A stretch of DNA of 64,000 nt from Alphaproteobacteria bacterium (GCA_022425485.1 JAKMFL010000058.1:1-64000), one strand, 5' to 3'; shown: positions 800 through 13,594, counted from the first letter of the stretch. Program-made: numbers and translations. Notes: generated by a model not told the origin, from the letters alone.

Positions 800-870
800 A
801 GCAATAATAAAGGTTTCTAGTTCTCATGACTTTTCTGGGTAACGTTAAACAATTTATTGTTGGTTTTGTT

Positions 871-889
871 TCTGAGGGTCTTTCTCAGA
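871..889. terminator. Weak inverted repeat between the RTX gene and the small-gene block
   Basis: TCTGAG at 871-876 pairs with CTCAGA at 884-889 around a 7-nt loop, in the spacer between two convergent transcription units. The tail is U-rich only in part, so termination is a guess. Confidence 0.3.
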
Positions 890-1002
890 TTGTATCTGTA
901 ATGAGAGATTTCTTATCTTCATCACCATCCCACCAACAACGACCTTTAACCACATCGGTTTTCTACCTTCGGTTAATGAATGGTACTCTCTAAATCTTAT
1001 CA

Positions 1003-1197
1003 TTACTTTCCTCCGTCTATGAACATCACAGAGAAATGACCATTTTGTTTATGGTATTTATCAAACATCTTATTAATGGTTTGTTTGTCTGAACTATTAA
1101 ACACCTCAACAACTTCAAACTTCGTTGAAGGTTTTAATTTTTGAATTACTGATACTAATTGTGTCTTTGATTGAGGTGATTTAGTTTGAGATATCAT
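1003..1197 (-). CDS. Small unknown protein, last gene of the AT-rich operon (64 aa)
   Basis: I do not recognise this protein. It is short, basic and lysine-rich, with a central segment reading KFEVVEVFNSSDKQTINKMF. It is likely real because its ATG overlaps the stop codon of the preceding RHH gene in a TAATG arrangement, and a GAGG ribosome-binding site lies about 5 nt upstream, both signs of translational coupling. It is the most distal of four genes read leftwards. The DNA is far richer in A+T than the housekeeping genes from 2.8 kb onward. A regulatory or accessory role in the element is an inference from position only. Confidence 0.55.
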   Translation of the reverse strand: MISQTKSPQSKTQLVSVIQKLKPSTKFEVVEVFNSSDKQTINKMFDKYHKQNGHFSVMFIDGGK

Positions 1198-1529
1198 TAC
1201 AACCTCAACAACCTATCTTCCCATTCATCATCTGATGTATATGGGATTAGTGGAGGTTCGTATTCATCTGTTATCTCTTTTTTGACTTCCTCTTTTAACT
1301 CTTTCTTATTTCGTTGAGTAAGATCTACCACCATTTGATTGAGGATATTATCTTCTTTTAATCGTCTCTGTTCAGAACGACAATAAGTCTCCATCAATTG
1401 AACTAACATTGATGTTCTACTTACTCTTTTCAATTTTACTAAATTATCAAAATTCTTAATCAGATAATTGGGTACATTAAAATTAATCAATTTGTGGTCA
1501 GACGAAATGTTCTGTGAGGTCATTTCCAT
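1197..1529 (-). CDS. Ribbon-helix-helix-like DNA-binding protein (110 aa)
   Basis: Residues about 14-50 fit a CopG/Arc-type ribbon-helix-helix: a strand (LINFNVPNYLI) followed by two helices (NFDNLVKLKRV and SRTSMLVQLMETYCRSE). Proteins of this fold are dimeric repressors, often controlling copy number, plasmid addiction or relaxase expression. The C-terminal half is a charged, probably coiled helix (RNKKELKEEVKKEITDEYE) ending in an acidic tail. An AAGG box about 9 nt before the ATG supports the start. It overlaps the upstream 97-aa gene by 32 nt and is coupled to the downstream 64-aa gene. The role as the element's own repressor is inferred from fold and operon position. The fold call is by eye. 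Confidence 0.6.
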   Translation of the reverse strand: MEMTSQNISSDHKLINFNVPNYLIKNFDNLVKLKRVSRTSMLVQLMETYCRSEQRRLKEDNILNQMVVDLTQRNKKELKEEVKKEITDEYEPPLIPYTSDDEWEDRLLRL

Positions 1530-1791
1530 TGGTTAATACCTTTCTTTGAGATGGTTCTATTAAGGGTTCAAAGAAAGTAAGGATTTCGGTTCTATTGGAA
1601 CTTTTGAATTCCTTTTCCCTCTCAATGAATTTGATAACTGAATTATATTGGTTGATAGTTATCGGTTGGTTGTTCTCTAATCGATTGATGATATTTTTGA
1701 GAACATTCTTCATATAGAGGTCTTTCTTTAATAAATATTGTTTGAGGTATCTGAGTAATAATGATTTTTTATAGTTAAATTCTGTATACAT
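1498..1791 (-). CDS. Unknown small helical protein of the AT-rich operon (97 aa)
   Basis: I do not recognise this product. It is basic and mostly helical in appearance, with a segment NRLENNQPITINQYNSVIKF near residues 37-56 followed by a charged EREKEF stretch. An AAGG box about 8 nt before the ATG supports the start at 1791. It sits between the HUH initiator gene upstream and the ribbon-helix-helix gene downstream, overlapping the latter by 32 nt in another frame, so the three are probably co-transcribed. Codon choice is strongly A/T-ending, like its neighbours in the block. No enzyme motif, signal peptide or membrane segment is visible. Confidence 0.5.
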   Translation of the reverse strand: MYTEFNYKKSLLLRYLKQYLLKKDLYMKNVLKNIINRLENNQPITINQYNSVIKFIEREKEFKSSNRTEILTFFEPLIEPSQRKVLTNGNDLTEHFV

Positions 1792-1896
1792 ATTAGTGAC
1801 CTTTGGAATTTAGGTAATATTAGTCATTAAAGAGAATCCAAACATTCTCTCTTTGACGGTGATTAAGATTGATTCAGTTAAAGGACTTTATAGTCA

Positions 1897-2376
1897 TCAA
1901 TTACTGAGAACTGTGGAGTTCACATAATCAATCGATGTACTCAATGAGACTTTGGTGTAGTCCTTCATTATGTAATCTAACCAACCATCCTCTCTTTGTT
2001 GGGAGGATGGTTTTTCTATGTGGATTTGTTCATATCCAAACTTAGTCACTGACCACACAGAATGAATCAGTGATACAAATTCTTCGAATTCATATCTCTG
2101 TGGTTGTTCAATTACACAATGTAGATGATGTCGTATGTCGGAACTGACTTCCCTAACCACCAACATTTGTAATTGTCTGTTGAATCGTTTGTAACCGTTA
2201 CCAAATACTTTACGATTCAACACATTTCTAAAGTGTCTGAAGTTTTGTTCAGATGAAGGGTCATCAATACGTTGACCATTCACATACTGTTTCTGAGTGA
2301 ATGTAACATTAATTGGATTAACCACTTTCTTAGACTTCAAATAGGTTCTTATTTGATTGTTTAAGGTACACTTCAT
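1897..2376 (-). CDS. HUH-type rolling-circle replication initiator-like protein (159 aa)
   Basis: Three motifs of rolling-circle Rep proteins appear in the expected order. Motif 1 is a beta strand NVTFTQK near residue 25. Motif 2 is the metal-binding HUH, seen as HHLHCVIE near residues 83-90. Motif 3 carries a nucleophile tyrosine followed by lysine, in DYIMKDYTK near residues 134-142. Such enzymes nick one strand at an origin and stay covalently attached. At 159 aa the protein is close to a minimal nuclease domain, with no helicase or extra DNA-binding region. I use the ATG at 2376 rather than the TTG one codon earlier. Inverted repeats lie directly upstream (2385-2467). Relaxase or transposase roles are alternatives. 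The family was judged by motif only. Confidence 0.65.
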   Translation of the reverse strand: MKCTLNNQIRTYLKSKKVVNPINVTFTQKQYVNGQRIDDPSSEQNFRHFRNVLNRKVFGNGYKRFNRQLQMLVVREVSSDIRHHLHCVIEQPQRYEFEEFVSLIHSVWSVTKFGYEQIHIEKPSSQQREDGWLDYIMKDYTKVSLSTSIDYVNSTVLSN

Positions 2377-2384
2377 CAAACACT

Positions 2385-2443
2385 CTAATTCGTTAAATTT
2401 GTATTTATGAGATATTTATCTCAGATTTATTTATACGAATTAG
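2385..2443. repeat. Nested inverted repeat upstream of the HUH gene (possible origin or operator)
   Basis: An outer 9-bp pair (CTAATTCGT at 2385-2393 and ACGAATTAG at 2435-2443) encloses an inner perfect 7-bp pair (TGAGATA at 2408-2414 and TATCTCA at 2417-2423, 2-nt gap). The structure starts 9 bp before the initiator ATG. Dyads in this position serve as nick sites or as repressor operators in rolling-circle replicons. Which applies here is not visible from sequence. Confidence 0.75.
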
Positions 2444-2447
2444 GTTC

Positions 2448-2467
2448 TCTACTGACGGTACAGTAGA
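2448..2467. repeat. Hairpin, 7-bp stem with 6-nt loop, next to the nested dyad
   Basis: TCTACTG at 2448-2454 pairs perfectly with CAGTAGA at 2461-2467, leaving loop ACGGTA. It follows the nested dyad by 4 bp, and a further small palindrome (AGACAGTCT) overlaps its right end. A loop-exposed nick site is the usual arrangement for HUH initiators, but no known nick consensus was recognised. Confidence 0.7.
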
Positions 2468-2487
2468 CAGTCTGAACTAATATCCCC

Positions 2488-2820
2488 TTAGAATTGAGTG
2501 GTGATGATTTTCAGTTTTTGAACTACTAAACGTTCCACTACTCTAATGACCTTATATGACCGACTTCTTTCTAATCGGCTATTGTACTTCTTTAAGGTCA
2601 CCCAAATTAGTTTGGGATAGTAGTCCTTACCCTTCGGAGTCTTAAGACCCTTCGAATTCAAATAATCGGATATCTGAACATTACTCATACCACTATCAGA
2701 TAGTGATTTTATGAGTTCTAATCTCTTTGTTCTTTGTGGGTTTAAAGTTATCAGAGAAGTGTTTTTGAGTTCTAATATAGTATTGAATTGAATGAATAAA
2801 CGGTGATCACCGTATATCAT
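2488..2820 (-). CDS. Orphan recombinase-type DNA-binding segment (110 aa)
   Basis: Residues about 30-80 resemble the 'Recombinase' DNA-binding domain of large serine recombinases: a helix GMSNVQISDYLNSKGLKTP, then the typical PKGKDYYPKLIWVTLKK. The serine catalytic domain that should precede it is absent, so the protein is at most a DNA-binding remnant or an excisionase-like factor. The first ATG lies 7 bp after the glmS stop codon on the same strand. No clear ribosome-binding site is seen, and the true start could be later. A+T-rich composition matches the block to its left and contrasts sharply with glmS, so the compositional border falls between this gene and glmS. Confidence 0.5.
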   Translation of the reverse strand: MIYGDHRLFIQFNTILELKNTSLITLNPQRTKRLELIKSLSDSGMSNVQISDYLNSKGLKTPKGKDYYPKLIWVTLKKYNSRLERSRSYKVIRVVERLVVQKLKIITTQF

Positions 2821-2827
2821 TCTAAAA

Positions 2828-4648
2828 CTATTCCACCGTTACGGATTTTGCCAAGTTTCGAGGTTGGTCAACATCTGTGCCCTTTTCAAACGCTGTTTGA
2901 TAGGCAAGTATTTGCGCTGGAACAGCCAGAATAATGGGCGCTAAAAGCGGGTCACAATCTTCTATCACCACTTTAAAGCTGGCAAAATCTACTTGTTTGG
3001 CTATGGTTTGTGTTGCGATCAGGATAATCGTTGCCCCACGCGCTTCGGCCTCTTTCAAATTGCTAATTGTTTTGGCAGAGAGCGTATCCTCATCTAACAG
3101 GCAAATTACCGGCAGCTCATCTTCAATAAGCGCGATAGGCCCATGCTTCATCTCACCTGCGGCAAAGCCTTCTGCATGAATATAGCTCAGCTCCTTTAGC
3201 TTTAGGGCAGCTTCGAGGGCAAGCGGATATAAACGCCCGCGCCCCAAAAACAAACAAGAGGGCGTTTTTTTCAGATGTTGTGCAACTGGTTGAACCTGCT
3301 CGAAACTCGCGATAGCTGCGCCTACCGCACCTGGAACCGCTAACAGTTTTTGTTGTAATTCAGCTACGTCTTCTGCGCTCAATCTGGCCTTTGCCCGGCC
3401 AAAATCCACCGCTAGGGCAAACAAAACCGTTAGCTGCGCCGTAAAAGCTTTGGTACTTGCCACGCCAATTTCAGGGCCGGCGCGTGTAGGCAAAATCACA
3501 TCCGCCTCTCTGGCAATACTGCTTTCTGGCACATTCACAATCGCAATCACTTTCATACCCTTTTCGCGAGCGTGGCGCAGTGCCATCAAGGTATCCAAAC
3601 TTTCACCAGATTGGGATATGGCAATCACAGCCCCGCCTGCCAAATGGGCTGGTGCGCGATAGCGATATTCAGATGCCGTTTCAACAGATACAGGTATCCC
3701 TGCAATATCTTCTAGCCAGTAGCGGCCAATTTGCCCTGCATAGTTGCTTGTACCCGCAGCTAGAATGACCAGATGCTGAATATCGCTGAGATCTGCCTCA
3801 GACAAGCCTGTGCGCAACGCGCCATCGGCGGCTGTCATAGCTGAAATTGTATGCGCGATAGCTTCTGGCTGTTCATGGATTTCCTTTTCCATGAAATGAC
3901 GAAAGCCGCCCTTATCAATAAGCGCCGGAGAAGCAGTAGTACGAATAACCTCCCGATTGGCGCGTTGACCATCGCGGTCATAGATTTGCACATCATCCAC
4001 GCCAAGGGCTGCGTAATCACCATCTTTTAGATAAATGACATTGCGGGTTAAATGGGCCATTGCCATCGCATCAGAAGCCACGCAAATAAGCCCATCTTCT
4101 ATGCCGATTGCCAAAGGCGAGGCATTCCGAGCAACAAATAGCTGGTCAGGGGCTTCCTGCAGCATTACCGCCAGTGCAAAGGCCCCTTTGATTTTTGCTA
4201 GAACAGCCTGCATAGCGGCGCTACCTGTCTGCCCCTGTCCCAGCGCGTCCAAAAACAGATGGGCCAGTACCTCACTATCGGTTTGCGAGGAAAATTCATG
4301 CCCCTTTGCCTGCAATTCTGTCTTTAATTCTGCATAATTCTCAATAATGCCATTATGAACAATCGCGACCTTATTACCTGCTACATGCGGATGGGCATTT
4401 GCCTCAGTGACGCCGCCATGGGTTGCCCAGCGCGTATGGCCAATACCAATCTGCCCAGCTTGCGGTTTTGACTGCAAGGCAGCTTCAAGATGACTAAGCT
4501 TTCCAACCGCACGCGTTAGGTGCAAGGCGTTCTGCTCTAGCGTGGCAATACCAGAGCTATCATAGCCGCGATATTCCAGCCTTTTTAGGGCATCCAGAAT
4601 GATGTCTGCTGCCTGTCCTTCTCCAATATAGCCTACAATACCGCACAT
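2828..4648 (-). CDS. glmS: Glutamine-fructose-6-phosphate aminotransferase (isomerizing)
   Basis: Makes glucosamine-6-phosphate from fructose-6-phosphate and glutamine in the cytoplasm, the entry step to peptidoglycan and LPS amino sugars. The start is the ATG at 4648 because the mature enzyme needs cysteine at position 2 (MCGIVGYIG). An upstream in-frame ATG would add 20 unlikely residues. The glutaminase domain spans about 1-240 (HTRWATHGG at 71-79). Two SIS sugar-isomerase domains follow (AAGTS at 297-301 and SQSGES at 345-350). The C-terminus AKSVTVE is the family's near-invariant end with the catalytic lysine. At 606 aa it is full length. It is divergent from glmU, with about 220 bp between. 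Its 3' end borders the AT-rich accessory block. Confidence 0.98.
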   Translation of the reverse strand: MCGIVGYIGEGQAADIILDALKRLEYRGYDSSGIATLEQNALHLTRAVGKLSHLEAALQSKPQAGQIGIGHTRWATHGGVTEANAHPHVAGNKVAIVHNGIIENYAELKTELQAKGHEFSSQTDSEVLAHLFLDALGQGQTGSAAMQAVLAKIKGAFALAVMLQEAPDQLFVARNASPLAIGIEDGLICVASDAMAMAHLTRNVIYLKDGDYAALGVDDVQIYDRDGQRANREVIRTTASPALIDKGGFRHFMEKEIHEQPEAIAHTISAMTAADGALRTGLSEADLSDIQHLVILAAGTSNYAGQIGRYWLEDIAGIPVSVETASEYRYRAPAHLAGGAVIAISQSGESLDTLMALRHAREKGMKVIAIVNVPESSIAREADVILPTRAGPEIGVASTKAFTAQLTVLFALAVDFGRAKARLSAEDVAELQQKLLAVPGAVGAAIASFEQVQPVAQHLKKTPSCLFLGRGRLYPLALEAALKLKELSYIHAEGFAAGEMKHGPIALIEDELPVICLLDEDTLSAKTISNLKEAEARGATIILIATQTIAKQVDFASFKVVIEDCDPLLAPIILAVPAQILAYQTAFEKGTDVDQPRNLAKSVTVE

Positions 4649-7740: not shown

Positions 7741-8977
7741 GTTTTGCCATGAATTCTTGGTCAATTTTTGGCAGTGGGGCATCTATAATGGCCGCTTCAA
7801 AGGCCTTTAAACGCTTATGGATAGACAGTAATTCAACAATCGTTGGCCATGAATTGACCAGATATTGAAAAGAATTAGAAACCTGACTAAACGCGGTTAG
7901 AATCTGTTGCATCAGCCCAAAGGTGATGCTCCCCACTACAATCGTTGGAATAAGCAGAAGATAGGCAAAGATGTTATCAGCTTGCAGATAAAAGCTCCGC
8001 GCCACATTGAAATACATATAATGAAAATATAGGCGGAAATAATTCCGGCGCACATTTGAAAACAGCTCTGTTAAGGTTGGCGGCTGGGCCCGTGTTTCAT
8101 CATCTTCGCCGTAAACCAGCTCTTTACGGTAAGCGGCCTCTACCCTTTGGTTTTTGAACTCAAGACCGGGTAGTTTCAGGCCGACCACTGCTAAAAACAC
8201 CGTACCGAACAAAGACCAGAAGATAGCAGCCATCAGTAATGGATTTGCAATCTCACCAACAAACGGAAGAGAGGTTATGTTCGAGGATAGCGCCATCAAT
8301 ACCGGCAGAAACGCAAATAATGTCATGATGGAATCTACAATCGCCACGCCAAGCCCCTCAACAATACCTGCAAAGCGCATCGTATCTTCTTGCACACGCT
8401 GGGAAGCGCCCTCAATATGCCGTACCTGCTTCCATTTCCCGACATAATAGTCGTTCATTGCCGTACGCCATCTAAACACGTAATGGCTGACAAAAAAGCG
8501 GGTAACCACATATACGCATATCCAGACAAAGGCTATTTGGGTGAAGATTAAAACTAAGCTGTAAAGATCAGCAGCTGTAGTTGTGCTTTCACCAGAAAGC
8601 GCATTTTGAACGGCATCAAAAAAGGGACGGCGCCAATTATTGATGGCAACCGATACCTGAACACTGAAATAAGTTGAAAATAATATCAGCTGGCTGCCAA
8701 GAATTGACCATCTCTGCCATTTATGCGGAAGATAACGAAACCAATAACCGGCAAAAATAGCACAAATGGCAATGTAATAAATATAAAACCAAAGAAATTC
8801 TGAGCTAATAAAATACCCGACCCCAACAATGGGATTATTCGGATCGGAATCGAGCGCAAAGCCAAGAGCACGGCCAATCTCCGTTCCGAAAATATACCAG
8901 ACAAAAATGGCCAAGGCCGCCCATAAAGCTGCACTTGTTAAAAATAATTTAGGACGCGGAAAAAAGCTTTCAAACAT
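7727..8977 (-). CDS. SbmA/BacA-family peptide transporter
   Basis: Inner-membrane protein of the SbmA/BacA family, which imports antimicrobial and other peptides using the proton gradient and in alphaproteobacteria affects very-long-chain fatty-acid lipid A. The N-terminus [20 protein letters not shown] and the segment [29 protein letters not shown] (in parts near residues 175-205) are characteristic. Several hydrophobic segments span the first 140 residues, 200-275 and 320-380. At 416 aa it is full length. It follows rodA on the same strand after 57 bp and may be read through from the rod-shape operon. Its last codons lie in a short tandem duplication. Confidence 0.85.
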
Positions 8978-10138: not shown

Positions 10139-12129
10139 TATGCTGAAATCCCATCTGATTTTAACATAAAATCCATGATATCCCGCGCAATAGGCGCCGC
10201 AGCAGAAGAGCCACTGCCGCCATGCTCAACAATCACTGATATAGCATAGCGCGGCTTCTCATAAGGCGCGAAAGCAACAAACAGCGCATGATCACGCTCT
10301 TTCCAAGGCCGGTCGATATTATCTATTATGCCTTTTTCGCGTTGCTCTTTAGTAATGCGTTTCACCTGCACGGTTCCAGTCTTTCCAGCCATGCCTTGTT
10401 CAATATCATGTTTGCGTGCTGTCCCTAGCCCACCTGCCATGACTTTACGCATGCTTTTATGCAAGAAACGGATAATATCTGGAGAGACGTCCAGCGGCGG
10501 GAATACAGCGCTTTTCTCTGTTCTTTTCTCTGTTCTTCTCTCTGGGCTTCTCTCTGGGCTTTGCTGTGTTACTAGGCTTGGTGTAATCGCTGAACGGCCA
10601 TTCGCTATCCTAGCTGTCATCAGCGCAAGCTGTAGCGGCGTGGTCAGAACAAACCCCTGACCGATACCTGCTACTACCGTCTCGCCGGGTGTCCAAACGA
10701 CACCGCGCTTTTCCAGCTTCCAATCGCGATTGGGAATAATACCCTCTTTCTCGCTGATAAGGCCAAGGGCACTCACATCCCCAAGTCCTAGTCGGCGGGC
10801 CATATCATGAATGCGATTAATGCCGGTTTTTAACGCGATTTGGTAAAAATAAACGTCACATGACCGCTCTATTGATTGTTCAGCATTAACCAAGCCATGC
10901 CCACGTTCAAGCCAACAATGAAAATTTTGGCCGCCAAATTCAAAAGCACCGCTGCAATCAATCCGCGTCTTCTGACTAATCACACCTGCTTCTAATGCTG
11001 CAGCTAATACGACCATCTTGAAGGTTGAGCCCGGCGGGTATAAACCAGAAATTGCGCGGTTTAATAGCGGGGTGCGTGGGTGCTCATTCATGCGCTGCCA
11101 ATCGCGCACCGAAAGCCTGTTTGAAAATAAGTTGGGATCAAAGCTTGGGGTGGAAACCATCACCTTAATCTCACCTGTTTCAATATCCATCACCACAACA
11201 GAACCAGATTCAGGGGGGATAAGCCGGCCTTTTTCATCTTTTAAGACCAAATCATCCCCCATAGAGACATGGGCACGCAGCTCTTTATTTTTTAATAGAG
11301 CTTCTTGTACTTCTGGCATCTGCACTGGTACGGCTTGCCAGCGTCCCCGCCGCAACCGATCGGTCGCAAAAAATTGCGCCTTAGCATCTAGCGACAGATA
11401 CGCATCTTCGCCCGGATTAGCTTGTTGATCTCGCAGAACCCTGACCGGCTTTCCTCTTGCATTTACTTCGACCCGTTCAAACCCGAACAGCCCCCGTAAA
11501 TCAGGCTCCATATTATGTTCAATGCCGGTTCGGCCAATCCGCGTTTCTGGCAAATAACGTAAATCAGGCTCTCCATCTATATCGCGTTTATTCACTGGCG
11601 AAACATATCCTGTAACATGTGCGGTCATCCACCCTTGCGGATAAATACGCTTGTAGCTTTTTTGGAAAGAGGCCCCTTCTAGCACTGGCGAAAGCACCGC
11701 AAGACGGGATAATTCACGCTGGGTTAAATTAGATTTAACTGTCACTTCTAAAAACTTTGGTTGCTCTGCGATTTTTTCTAAAATTGTTTCAATATTTTCC
11801 GGCTTTAGCGTGATAAGGCGGCTAACACGTTTTAGCCAAGCCTGATGGTTACTAATCCGCGAAGGCAGCATCCGTAGCTCAAACACCTCAGAATTACCAG
11901 CTAGAAGCCGGCCTTTACGATCCAGAATACGCCCGCGCGGTGCAAGCACGAGCCGCCGGTCAAACTGGTTATTATCGGATAACCTGCGATAGCCCTCGCT
12001 TTGTGCAATCTGCAACTGATATAGCCGGCCAACCAGCAACGCGCCCAGCACCCCCTGTCCAGCGCCCAGCATCAGCATACGCCGTGTCATAATGGTGGAT
12101 AATTCTTTTTGCTCTTTGCGCTTCTTCAT
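10138..12129 (-). CDS. mrdA: Penicillin-binding protein 2 (elongation transpeptidase)
   Basis: Class B PBP that cross-links peptidoglycan in the elongasome, anchored by one N-terminal membrane helix (about residues 17-40). A pedestal/dimerisation domain comes first, with the transpeptidase at about 300-655. The catalytic motifs are STFK near 367, SCD near 427 and KTG near 585. Residues about 524-539 are an odd charged insert, two SPER-type units followed by two RTEK units, encoded by four 12-bp tandem repeats between the SxN and KTG motifs. At 663 aa the protein is a little longer than most PBP2s. It overlaps mreD by 4 nt and rodA by 1 nt. Confidence 0.95.
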   Translation of the reverse strand: MKKRKEQKELSTIMTRRMLMLGAGQGVLGALLVGRLYQLQIAQSEGYRRLSDNNQFDRRLVLAPRGRILDRKGRLLAGNSEVFELRMLPSRISNHQAWLKRVSRLITLKPENIETILEKIAEQPKFLEVTVKSNLTQRELSRLAVLSPVLEGASFQKSYKRIYPQGWMTAHVTGYVSPVNKRDIDGEPDLRYLPETRIGRTGIEHNMEPDLRGLFGFERVEVNARGKPVRVLRDQQANPGEDAYLSLDAKAQFFATDRLRRGRWQAVPVQMPEVQEALLKNKELRAHVSMGDDLVLKDEKGRLIPPESGSVVVMDIETGEIKVMVSTPSFDPNLFSNRLSVRDWQRMNEHPRTPLLNRAISGLYPPGSTFKMVVLAAALEAGVISQKTRIDCSGAFEFGGQNFHCWLERGHGLVNAEQSIERSCDVYFYQIALKTGINRIHDMARRLGLGDVSALGLISEKEGIIPNRDWKLEKRGVVWTPGETVVAGIGQGFVLTTPLQLALMTARIANGRSAITPSLVTQQSPERSPERRTEKRTEKSAVFPPLDVSPDIIRFLHKSMRKVMAGGLGTARKHDIEQGMAGKTGTVQVKRITKEQREKGIIDNIDRPWKERDHALFVAFAPYEKPRYAISVIVEHGGSGSSAAAPIARDIMDFMLKSDGISA
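10511..10558. repeat. Tandem repeat, 4 x 12 bp, inside mrdA
   Basis: Two exact copies of CTTTTCTCTGTT (10511-10522, 10523-10534) are followed by two exact copies of CTTCTCTCTGGG (10535-10546, 10547-10558). They keep the reading frame and encode the RTEK and SPER units of PBP2. Confidence 0.97.
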
Positions 12130-12677
12130 CTAATTCTACTATCCATTTTTGTGCGCAAAATAAATTGCCCCGCAGAAGCAGCAGATACCAAAAGAACATA
12201 AAAAATTGGAAACAGCAAAATCGTCATTCCCACTTGCAAAAAGATATCACTAATCGCTGGCAAAGACAGATAGGCTATAAAATAGATAACCATTTTAAAG
12301 CTGGAAAAAAACAGGACAATCAGCGAGAAAGCAGACCAAATTTCTAGAAAATCACTGTGAATTAAAACTGGACTTCGCCATCTGGTTATCAGCGCCACCA
12401 ACACCAGAGCTGTTGCATTCATTCCCAGCATTTCAAAAAACATCAGCTCTGAGAATAGACCAATTAAAAAGACAGCAATAATGGAAAGCTGATTAGAGAA
12501 AAATAAATTCATGTAAAATACATAGGCGAGGACAAGCAGTGGGCCAGCTACAAAAAACACCTTCCACTGTGCAAATGCACCTTCTGCCAATACTAGAAAA
12601 CAGCCAAATAGTGCCAATAAAATCTGAATGGGGATGGGCGAGCTAAGCTCAGCAGGGCGTTCAAGTGGGCTGGTCAT
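12126..12677 (-). CDS. mreD: Rod-shape determining membrane protein MreD
   Basis: Small polytopic inner-membrane partner of MreC in the elongasome. It is 183 aa with about five hydrophobic segments (for example ILLALFGCFLVLAEGAF and LIVLFFSSFKMVIYFIAYL). MreD sequences are poorly conserved, and the assignment rests mainly on topology, size and the place between mreC and mrdA. Four-nucleotide overlaps at both ends show tight translational coupling. Confidence 0.88.
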   Translation of the reverse strand: MTSPLERPAELSSPIPIQILLALFGCFLVLAEGAFAQWKVFFVAGPLLVLAYVFYMNLFFSNQLSIIAVFLIGLFSELMFFEMLGMNATALVLVALITRWRSPVLIHSDFLEIWSAFSLIVLFFSSFKMVIYFIAYLSLPAISDIFLQVGMTILLFPIFYVLLVSAASAGQFILRTKMDSRIR

Positions 12678-13594
12678 TGCAGCACATCCTTTGTGCTAAA
12701 CCCTTCTAACAGCCGTTTGTTATCTGTTTCCGGCAATGGCGTGAAGAAATCTGCAAACCCGCCTATTTCAGTTACGCCCTGACCTTCTGGTCGTACTAAA
12801 ATGGACACAAATGAGACTTTGCGCAAATCCACGACAGGCTGGATATAATATTCGCGCCCCACCCCTTTGATTACTCTACCCACTGGCAAGCCCGGGGGTA
12901 GTATCTCGCCATGGCCGGAGGTAAGTACCAGCTCATTTTCTTTTGGCACCGCTTCTAATGGCAGAAAAGAAAGCGAAAGCATATCGCTGTTCTGGCCAAT
13001 AGCTAGCCCCGGCCATGAAGAAGTGCTGAGCAAAATCGGTATTCTGGAATTGACATCACTTAGCATCAGCACCCAAGAATGGCGTTTACTGGCCTCAATG
13101 ATATAGCCAACCAAACCATCGGCCGTAACCACCGGATCCCCGCGGTGAATACGTTTATCCGTGCCATGGGTGATCATCATAGTATGCGAAAAACTGCTGC
13201 CAGGTGCGGCAATGGCACGCGCCGTAACAGCTTGGCGATCAGCAGGGATAACCGCGCCTAGAACGGTGCGCAATTGGCGGTTTTCAGATTCTAAAATCTC
13301 AGAACGTCTCTGCCAGCGTTTCAAACGCTCATTTTCGGCGCGTAGCCGTACCGTCTCTTCTCGCAGAGACGCAACAGTTCTCATCCCCTCAAACATGGTC
13401 TCTACCGCGCGTACAGGCGTTGCAACTACATTAAATAATGGTGCAAAAAGCGCTGAAAAACCGGTCTGGACGGTACGAACGGCCAGCATATCTGCTTTGC
13501 CAACAAAAATCAGGGCAAAGCCAAGCAGGATAATAATAAGATGCAGGAAGCGGCGAGGTTGGGCGGCACGCATCCTTCCCGTGCGACCAGCCAT
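12674..13594 (-). CDS. mreC: Rod-shape determining protein MreC
   Basis: Periplasmic bitopic scaffold linking MreB to PBP2/RodA. A basic N-terminus and one membrane helix (about 15-35) are followed by a coiled coil (REETVRLRAENERLKRWQ in parts, about 80-105) and the beta-barrel MreC domain with GLVGYIIEASKRHSWVLMLSD near 165-185. At 306 aa it is normal. It begins 5 bp after mreB ends and overlaps mreD by 4 nt. Confidence 0.95.
   Translation of the reverse strand: MAGRTGRMRAAQPRRFLHLIIILLGFALIFVGKADMLAVRTVQTGFSALFAPLFNVVATPVRAVETMFEGMRTVASLREETVRLRAENERLKRWQRRSEILESENRQLRTVLGAVIPADRQAVTARAIAAPGSSFSHTMMITHGTDKRIHRGDPVVTADGLVGYIIEASKRHSWVLMLSDVNSRIPILLSTSSWPGLAIGQNSDMLSLSFLPLEAVPKENELVLTSGHGEILPPGLPVGRVIKGVGREYYIQPVVDLRKVSFVSILVRPEGQGVTEIGGFADFFTPLPETDNKRLLEGFSTKDVLQ

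Follow-up and report, generated by a model that had tools for sequence, protein, structure and literature searches.

A Rep cassette behind glmS in a genome of the SAR116 order and its probable relation to satellites of T4-like phages

Gene content and setting of the cassette

The window analysed here is a 64-kb stretch of a 1.99-Mb draft genome in 90 contigs, beginning at the first base of contig C32, and the host belongs to the order of SAR116. Next to glmS, the window carries a compact minus-strand operon with the gene order Rep-C-RHH-E-F (854-2435, Table 1), 0.85 kb from the contig end on its left. The five minus-strand ORFs picked out earlier by a reading of the sequence without database searches (hereafter the sequence-only reading) were all recovered, as were the overlaps that it had described between them (32 nt between C and the RHH gene, the RHH/E junction at 1197, and the E stop meeting the next start at 1003), and the A+T richness that it had remarked upon is real, the GC content being 0.31-0.34 in the cassette versus 0.40-0.53 over the next 9 kb rightward. 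The limits that it had drawn for the cassette were wrong: gene F was missed and the ORF at 2488-2820 was included. Nor did it notice the late promoter, the capsid-targeting leader on F or the putative origin.

The cassette ORFs are real genes since their order is kept in relatives and non-synonymous change is far rarer than synonymous (pN is far lower than pS for every gene compared, and dN/dS is about 0.07-0.31 between loci where dS is unsaturated). The ribbon-helix-helix assignment of one of the products stands in part: the sequence pattern is present, and no Pfam model reaches its cut-off for the window protein, while a syntenic relative in locus L059 weakly matches the CopG/HicB models. 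Judging by its sequence, this protein is probably the repressor of the operon. No integrase is found in reach of the window copy and F is truncated, and thus this copy may be stranded or may need help in trans.

Table 1. Position of the features at the left end of the window
Feature	Position	Strand	Basis or remark
glmS, whose 3' end serves as the integration hotspot that carries the cassette	2828-4648	-	
110-aa HTH protein, Recombinase-like (PF07508)	2488-2820	-	glmS-hotspot gene outside the Rep cassette
TATAAATA, T4-type late promoter, 56 nt before Rep	2428-2435	-	sole copy in the window
Perfect inverted repeat TGAGATA-AA-TATCTCA, between promoter and Rep	2408-2423	-	read from the sequence
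Rep, HUH rolling-circle initiator, 159 aa, single catalytic tyrosine	1897-2376	-	motifs, AF2 fold
Non-coding conserved block, candidate double-strand origin	1808-1895	-	covariation, position
Hairpin 1	1884-1895	-	within the origin block
Hairpin 2	1829-1852	-	within the origin block
TAATATTACC	1813-1822	-	within the origin block
C, 97 aa, function unassigned	1498-1791	-	kept in L015, L016, L019
RHH-like protein, 110 aa, probable operon repressor	1197-1529	-	pattern and synteny
E, 64 aa	1003-1197	-	E-like ORF also in the 2.87-kb complete element
F, 49 aa, truncated; N-terminus MIRFREYHSLTEG resembles a T4 leader for capsid targeting, prohead-protease site included	854-1003	-	

Motifs and predicted fold identify Rep as an HUH initiator

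The HUH identity proposed earlier from three motifs has held up, the HxH motif (H84/H86) and Y135xxK138 being invariant in 12 divergent aligned relatives. A structural check of the 159-aa product, which had been recommended, was also carried out: its AlphaFold model (AF2; pLDDT 81.5, pTM 0.81) matches Rep nucleases. In BFVD, the matches of the model are viral, the named ones are mostly replication initiators, and the E-values go down to 1.8e-5. In the PDB, the model matches SIRV1 ORF119 (Z 8.7) and, over 123 residues, the nuclease domains of AAV Rep (Z 8.6), with weak Foldseek E-values of about 1e-2, and ribosomal S6 and similar unrelated ferredoxin-like folds score equally high. The fold alone is thus not decisive, and it is the motifs and the predicted fold together that make the protein an HUH initiator. 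At the sequence level, the window Rep scores 22.5 bits against PF23343 (REP_ORF2-G2P), under the Pfam gathering cut-off of 27.8 bits, and the distant Rep of L022 scores 23.9 bits; the match of the window Rep to phrog_10883 has an E-value of 3.9e-6. An identity as a REP-associated transposase, with which the fold is shared (4er8, Z 7.3), was rejected because the relatives carry integrases with att repeats.

A T4-type late promoter precedes Rep

The late promoters of T4 have the consensus TATAAATA at positions -13 to -6, the first T of which is poorly kept in relatives of T4, and CTAAATA is found in Aeh1 (PMC1524935). The only TATAAATA of the window, both strands counted, stands before Rep. In nine loci the motif lies 28-65 nt ahead of Rep, in three of them in DNA with a GC content of 46-54%; the three remaining Rep loci have CATAAATA (L058) or CTAAATA (L018 and L020). 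Over 12 loci, TATAAATA alone precedes 9 of the 12 Rep genes and none of the 241 other ORFs (Fisher 2e-14), and when the CATAAATA and CTAAATA variants are admitted, which was done after inspection of the three loci lacking TATAAATA, a T4-type late promoter is present within 82 nt upstream of all 12 testable Rep genes versus 5 of the 241 other ORFs (Fisher 5.6e-17), but relatedness among the loci and the post hoc addition of the variants make both p-values overstate the certainty. Three of these five other ORFs are themselves genes of the elements. The only two copies of CTAAATA in the 12 kb of L020 are located before Rep and before E-RHH, as are two of the three copies in L018; at both loci, the position of the motif would give a leaderless Rep mRNA. 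A T4-like phage with an alphaproteobacterial host, the pelagiphage HTVC008M, has TATAAATA before ten genes including those of the tail sheath, portal and baseplate.

The inverted repeat between the promoter and Rep is a possible operator, and the ATAAATA units that are repeated upstream of Rep in the window could be protein-binding sites.

A candidate origin follows Rep

In eleven loci, Rep is separated from the next gene by a block of 84-98 nt. Its first hairpin has a 4-bp stem around TATAAA, in which GAC..GTC covaries to GAG..CTC and GGG..CCC, and none of 500 shuffles reached its covariation score. In the second hairpin the entire stem changes, the hairpin's own arms pair better than swapped ones, and the observed mean was reached in 0 of 20000 permutations. 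Hairpin 2 is followed by TAATATTACCTAAA or a variant of it; the window has a single AATATTACC, while AATATTACCTA is found at the same place in L058 and directly upstream of Rep in L061. Sequence in the block resembles the CRESS nonanucleotide, TAATATTAC. The site that Rep would be expected to nick is this block, with its hairpins and TAATATTACC.

F carries a leader of the T4 capsid-targeting type

The prohead protease of T4 cuts according to the rule [IL]xE. Full-length F proteins of the relatives, which have 82-89 aa, begin with MLRFKQFISE, MIRFKNFIELNE, MYSFKQFITINE and MLSFKSYTELKE, each ahead of a G, and with MLSFKNHLLLNNIRNLNE ahead of an S; the shortened F of the window begins with MIRFREYHSLTE ahead of a G. 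The internal proteins ipI, ipII and ipIII, taken from the T4 record, match this pattern: they share with F a short N-terminal leader ending in a site of the [IL]xE type, while the searches run detected no similarity of their bodies to F. In the Rhodobacteraceae copy at L055, the leader is retained at the position of F on an unrelated body. Because the pattern was built from F, only the L055 protein and T4 are independent tests of it; among 21 loci screened, no ORF fits besides the F proteins and that of L055. The pattern is not exclusive, since gene e also fits among the T4 genes read, and its background is 1 of 66 ORFs in the window, 0 of 74 in HMO-2011 and 3 of 188 in HTVC008M. The leader is disordered in the AF2 model of F, the pLDDT of which is low (65). 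Proteins of T4 enter proheads by way of leaders 10-20 residues long (PMC5694885). By the resemblance of its leader, F qualifies as a putative T4-type capsid-targeted protein.

Only some of the elements carry F: it was not seen in L018, L020, L021, L056, L058 and L059, and it is a pseudogene in five genomes of a related genus. At 1-799, the plus strand of the window holds the 3' end of a gene, interrupted by the contig end, for a calcium-binding repeat protein of the RTX type; F is cut short at about 854, where it runs into this RTX segment.

Relatives and complete elements

The cassette is sporadic and horizontally spread. Rep is absent from the 7 other genomes of the window's genus and present in 10 of 136 genomes of the order, of which the weakest three are distant or broken; in a sample of 385 genomes over the class it occurs in 6, and no further loci came from the orders of G213 and G433, which were searched as well. 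The Rep of Alexandriicola marinus (Rhodobacteraceae), of which the culturable strain LZ-14 has a Rep-RHH-F copy, is 55% identical to that of the window, versus 36-42% for several SAR116 copies. A search for the cassette at other loci, also suggested earlier, located it in islands at tRNA-Arg(CCT), tRNA-Arg(ACG), tRNA-Phe and tRNA-Met as well as after glmS, usually beside an integrase. With relatives at such different sites, the genes are not confined to vertically inherited positions; such a confinement is what the sequence-only reading had named as speaking against its interpretation. The order Rep-C-RHH-E-F recurs in L015, L016 and L019, and variant layouts are found in L017 (without C), L021 (Rep-C-RHH) and L055 (Rep-RHH-F').

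A complete element of 2867 bp resides in tRNA-Arg(ACG) of G075 (L018), bounded by an exact 59-bp repeat whose second copy is at 7744-7802, and contains an integrase, Rep, an E-like ORF, a 49-aa RHH-like ORF and one reverse 101-aa ORF. In G089 (L020), a 62-bp repeat at tRNA-Arg bounds 6.2 kb. Site-specific integration is thus seen in relatives, from these 59- and 62-bp att repeats at tRNA-Arg and the integrases, the window copy having no integrase in reach. Elements of about 9 kb lie between tRNA-Arg(CCT) and a 408-aa integrase in G082 and G119, and a 53-bp tRNA-Met repeat surrounds a larger island of about 26 kb in G034. Exact att repeats were not found for G082, G119 and L055, the far ends in G082 and G119 having tRNA-like fragments of about 80% identity. 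The G082 element encodes a 482-aa glucosyltransferase (PF20691, E 2.9e-29) that has about 40-48% identity with T4-like phage proteins, its relatives belonging mostly to Aeromonas, Tenacibaculum and Pectobacterium phages.

Several further observations were made at these loci. Behind the 2.87-kb element of L018, another tRNA-Arg repeat and a second related integrase (11978-13001) indicate a tandem integration in one tRNA. A conserved QHIRLWFEF protein of about 195-235 aa with no family match accompanies the elements in L016 (3-590), L017 (6431-7123), L021 (3077-3748) and L055 (12966-13673). A tyrosine recombinase of about 200 aa, which is not the main integrase, is encoded in L019 (3762-4364), L034 (3585-4184), L037 (10207-10806) and L016 (1948-2547).

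In the IMG/VR contigs, no confirmed relative of Rep, F or the QHIRLWF protein was found, and searches there with the Rhodobacteraceae Rep and the alternative F came out empty. Two IMG/VR matches were discarded: that of the Rep query to L004, which is antisense and inside a tail gene, and that of the alignment search to L047, a chance match of 19 residues in a phage gene. Rep and F have no significant match in phage records, and there was no match among the 72,556 plasmid records of one collection.

The glmS hotspot

The cassette follows glmS in the window and in G101. Members of the genus have different DNA past the glmS stop, in some genomes with serine recombinases or their remnants. With an E-value of 0.0024, which does not reach the cut-off, the product of the ORF at 2488-2820 is similar to the part of large serine recombinases that binds DNA (PF07508). 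As an element gene this ORF was dropped; it is a gene of the hotspot, because G001 has it without Rep. The first 0.4 kb at this site in G001, which holds this gene, is common with the window and is followed by an RHH remnant and an intact F. The Rep cassette at the glmS site is thus, at least in part, old and decaying, which fits the F pseudogenes in five genomes of another genus. A serine recombinase of the G001 type and the LysE gene, a marker of the other side of the glmS site, were looked for in the window's genome, and neither was found.

The 3' end of glmS (2820-2830 in the window; L026-L031, L022 and L023) is, in SAR116, an integration hotspot with large serine recombinases and small HTH proteins, with restriction-modification-like genes as well in L023; Tn7 uses the same end of glmS via a different enzyme. 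A second, distant Rep family of 161 aa with small genes of its own is also found beside glmS (L022, 6179-6664; L023, 1604-2089). This group has TATAAATA 57 nt before its 74-aa gene and may be a sister group of satellites.

A satellite of T4-like phages and its alternatives

We consider it likely that T4-like phages are the helpers of an integrative satellite and that the cassette, truncated in the window copy, is its replication-and-late operon. The link to T4-like phages comes from the late promoter of Rep, the leader of F and the glucosyltransferase of the T4-like-phage type in a sibling element. The "minimal integrated replicon or phage satellite" of the sequence-only reading was of the right kind, since the cassette recurs and has a complete 2.87-kb relative; its minimal integrated replicon is, in the window, an incomplete copy. 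In a broader reading, which we favour on balance, these are new satellites, spread over Alphaproteobacteria, that act within the late programme of T4-like phages with an HUH Rep and a capsid-targeted protein in one late operon, are copied as concatemers and load a protein of their own into T4-like heads, the smallest version being 2.87 kb.

The cycle of such a satellite might run as follows. The integrase-bearing relatives would reside in a tRNA gene or hotspot, and the RHH-like protein would keep the operon quiet until infection. Upon infection by a T4-like phage, a late sigma factor of the gp55 type would read the TATAAATA-class promoter before Rep, and Rep would nick the block directly downstream of its own gene. 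The rolling-circle replication that ensues would give head-to-tail concatemers of the 3-9 kb unit, which a helper with headful packaging could load. F, a product of this late operon too, would enter the helper prohead via its leader, be cut by the prohead protease and travel with the DNA. From excision through nicking, helper induction and packaging to the role of F, these steps are what we infer.

Other explanations must be weighed. Plasmids and IMEs, too, are known to combine an HUH Rep with a neighbouring integrase and RHH protein, and this set would also fit an integrative element, integrated plasmid or IME with no link to phages, where the rolling circle serves upkeep or conjugative mobilisation. 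The TATAAATA repeats would then be binding sites of Rep or the RHH protein, as the ATAAATA units and the inverted repeat upstream of the window Rep might suggest, and the leader of F would be a coincidence; the fact that no viral contig was found in IMG/VR agrees with this. However, no plasmid match was found either, the motif varies in the ways known for T4-type late promoters, CTAAATA among them, and in L018 and L020 stands before a second operon too, and both the leader on two unrelated bodies and the glucosyltransferase of the T4-like-phage type are left unexplained. We regard an explanation without phages as unlikely. An origin as a prophage fragment, a remnant of a single-stranded DNA phage or a transposon of the IS200/REP-associated type is very improbable: the Rep fold is common to microvirus and CRESS initiators and to the REP-associated transposase, but the likeness to those initiators is one of fold and not of close sequence, and the relatives have integrases and tRNA att repeats and no capsid gene of single-stranded DNA phages.

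The chances are not far from even that the stretch in the window serves no function today and is the dead remainder of a mobile element left behind in the glmS hotspot. Its F is shortened and no integrase is within reach, and elsewhere F has become a pseudogene in the five genomes of the related genus and Rep was lost in G001; yet none of Rep, C, RHH and E is broken, their dN/dS between loci is low, and the promoter and the origin block are intact. Such decay concerns the window copy and not the family, and is compatible with the satellite reading.

If the satellite reading is right, T4 late transcription and capsid targeting can be borrowed by a parasite of 3-9 kb, among the smallest satellites known, and HUH rolling-circle replication feeds a headful packaging motor in a natural system. 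The signature of a late promoter before Rep and a covarying origin would then allow such elements to be recognised where capsid and terminase genes are lacking. In the sea, T4-like phages belong to the common phages, and no satellite dependent on them was found described. Gene transfer by such elements could matter ecologically because SAR116 and Rhodobacteraceae are abundant in the ocean.

Comparison with known systems

With the Reps of PF23343 and of CRESS-DNA viruses, the Rep described here shares the HxH motif, the single-tyrosine YxxK, the fold and an origin sequence like TAATATTAC. It differs from them in its length of 159 aa, the absence of a helicase domain, its chromosomal position beside an integrase and its Pfam score below the cut-off. 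We found no published description of satellites of T4-like phages of this type, the literature on tycheposons and VEIMEs lying outside the comparison, and none that joins a phage satellite with a capsid targeting sequence or satellites with T4-type late promoters.

The PLE of Vibrio cholerae, the helper of which is ICP1, is an integrated satellite of a virulent myophage and, like the Rep family, has its own replication initiator; we know of no HUH protein, T4-type late promoter or capsid-targeting leader in PLE. Its size is about 18 kb (PMC10803314). Tycheposons and VEIMEs, integrated marine elements linked to virus particles (PMC10803314), may overlap with the Rep family.

The nearest experimental precedent for concatemer packaging is provided by the PICMI (phage-inducible chromosomal minimalist islands) of Vibrionaceae, which are likewise small and have an integrase and few genes (PMC10803314). 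PICMI115, of 6.1 kb, was called the smallest characterised satellite, and PICMI DNA is copied in a rolling-circle-like manner and packaged as concatemers (PMC10803314). PICMI have a virulent marine helper and no capsid-remodelling genes, and differ from the Rep family in encoding AlpA and a primase and in integrating at fis in vibrios (PMC10803314); by gene content and sites, no AlpA, primase or integration at fis was seen in L018-L021 and L055. The Rep family has instead an HUH Rep, tRNA and glmS sites, alphaproteobacterial hosts, a T4-type late promoter and a capsid-targeting leader.
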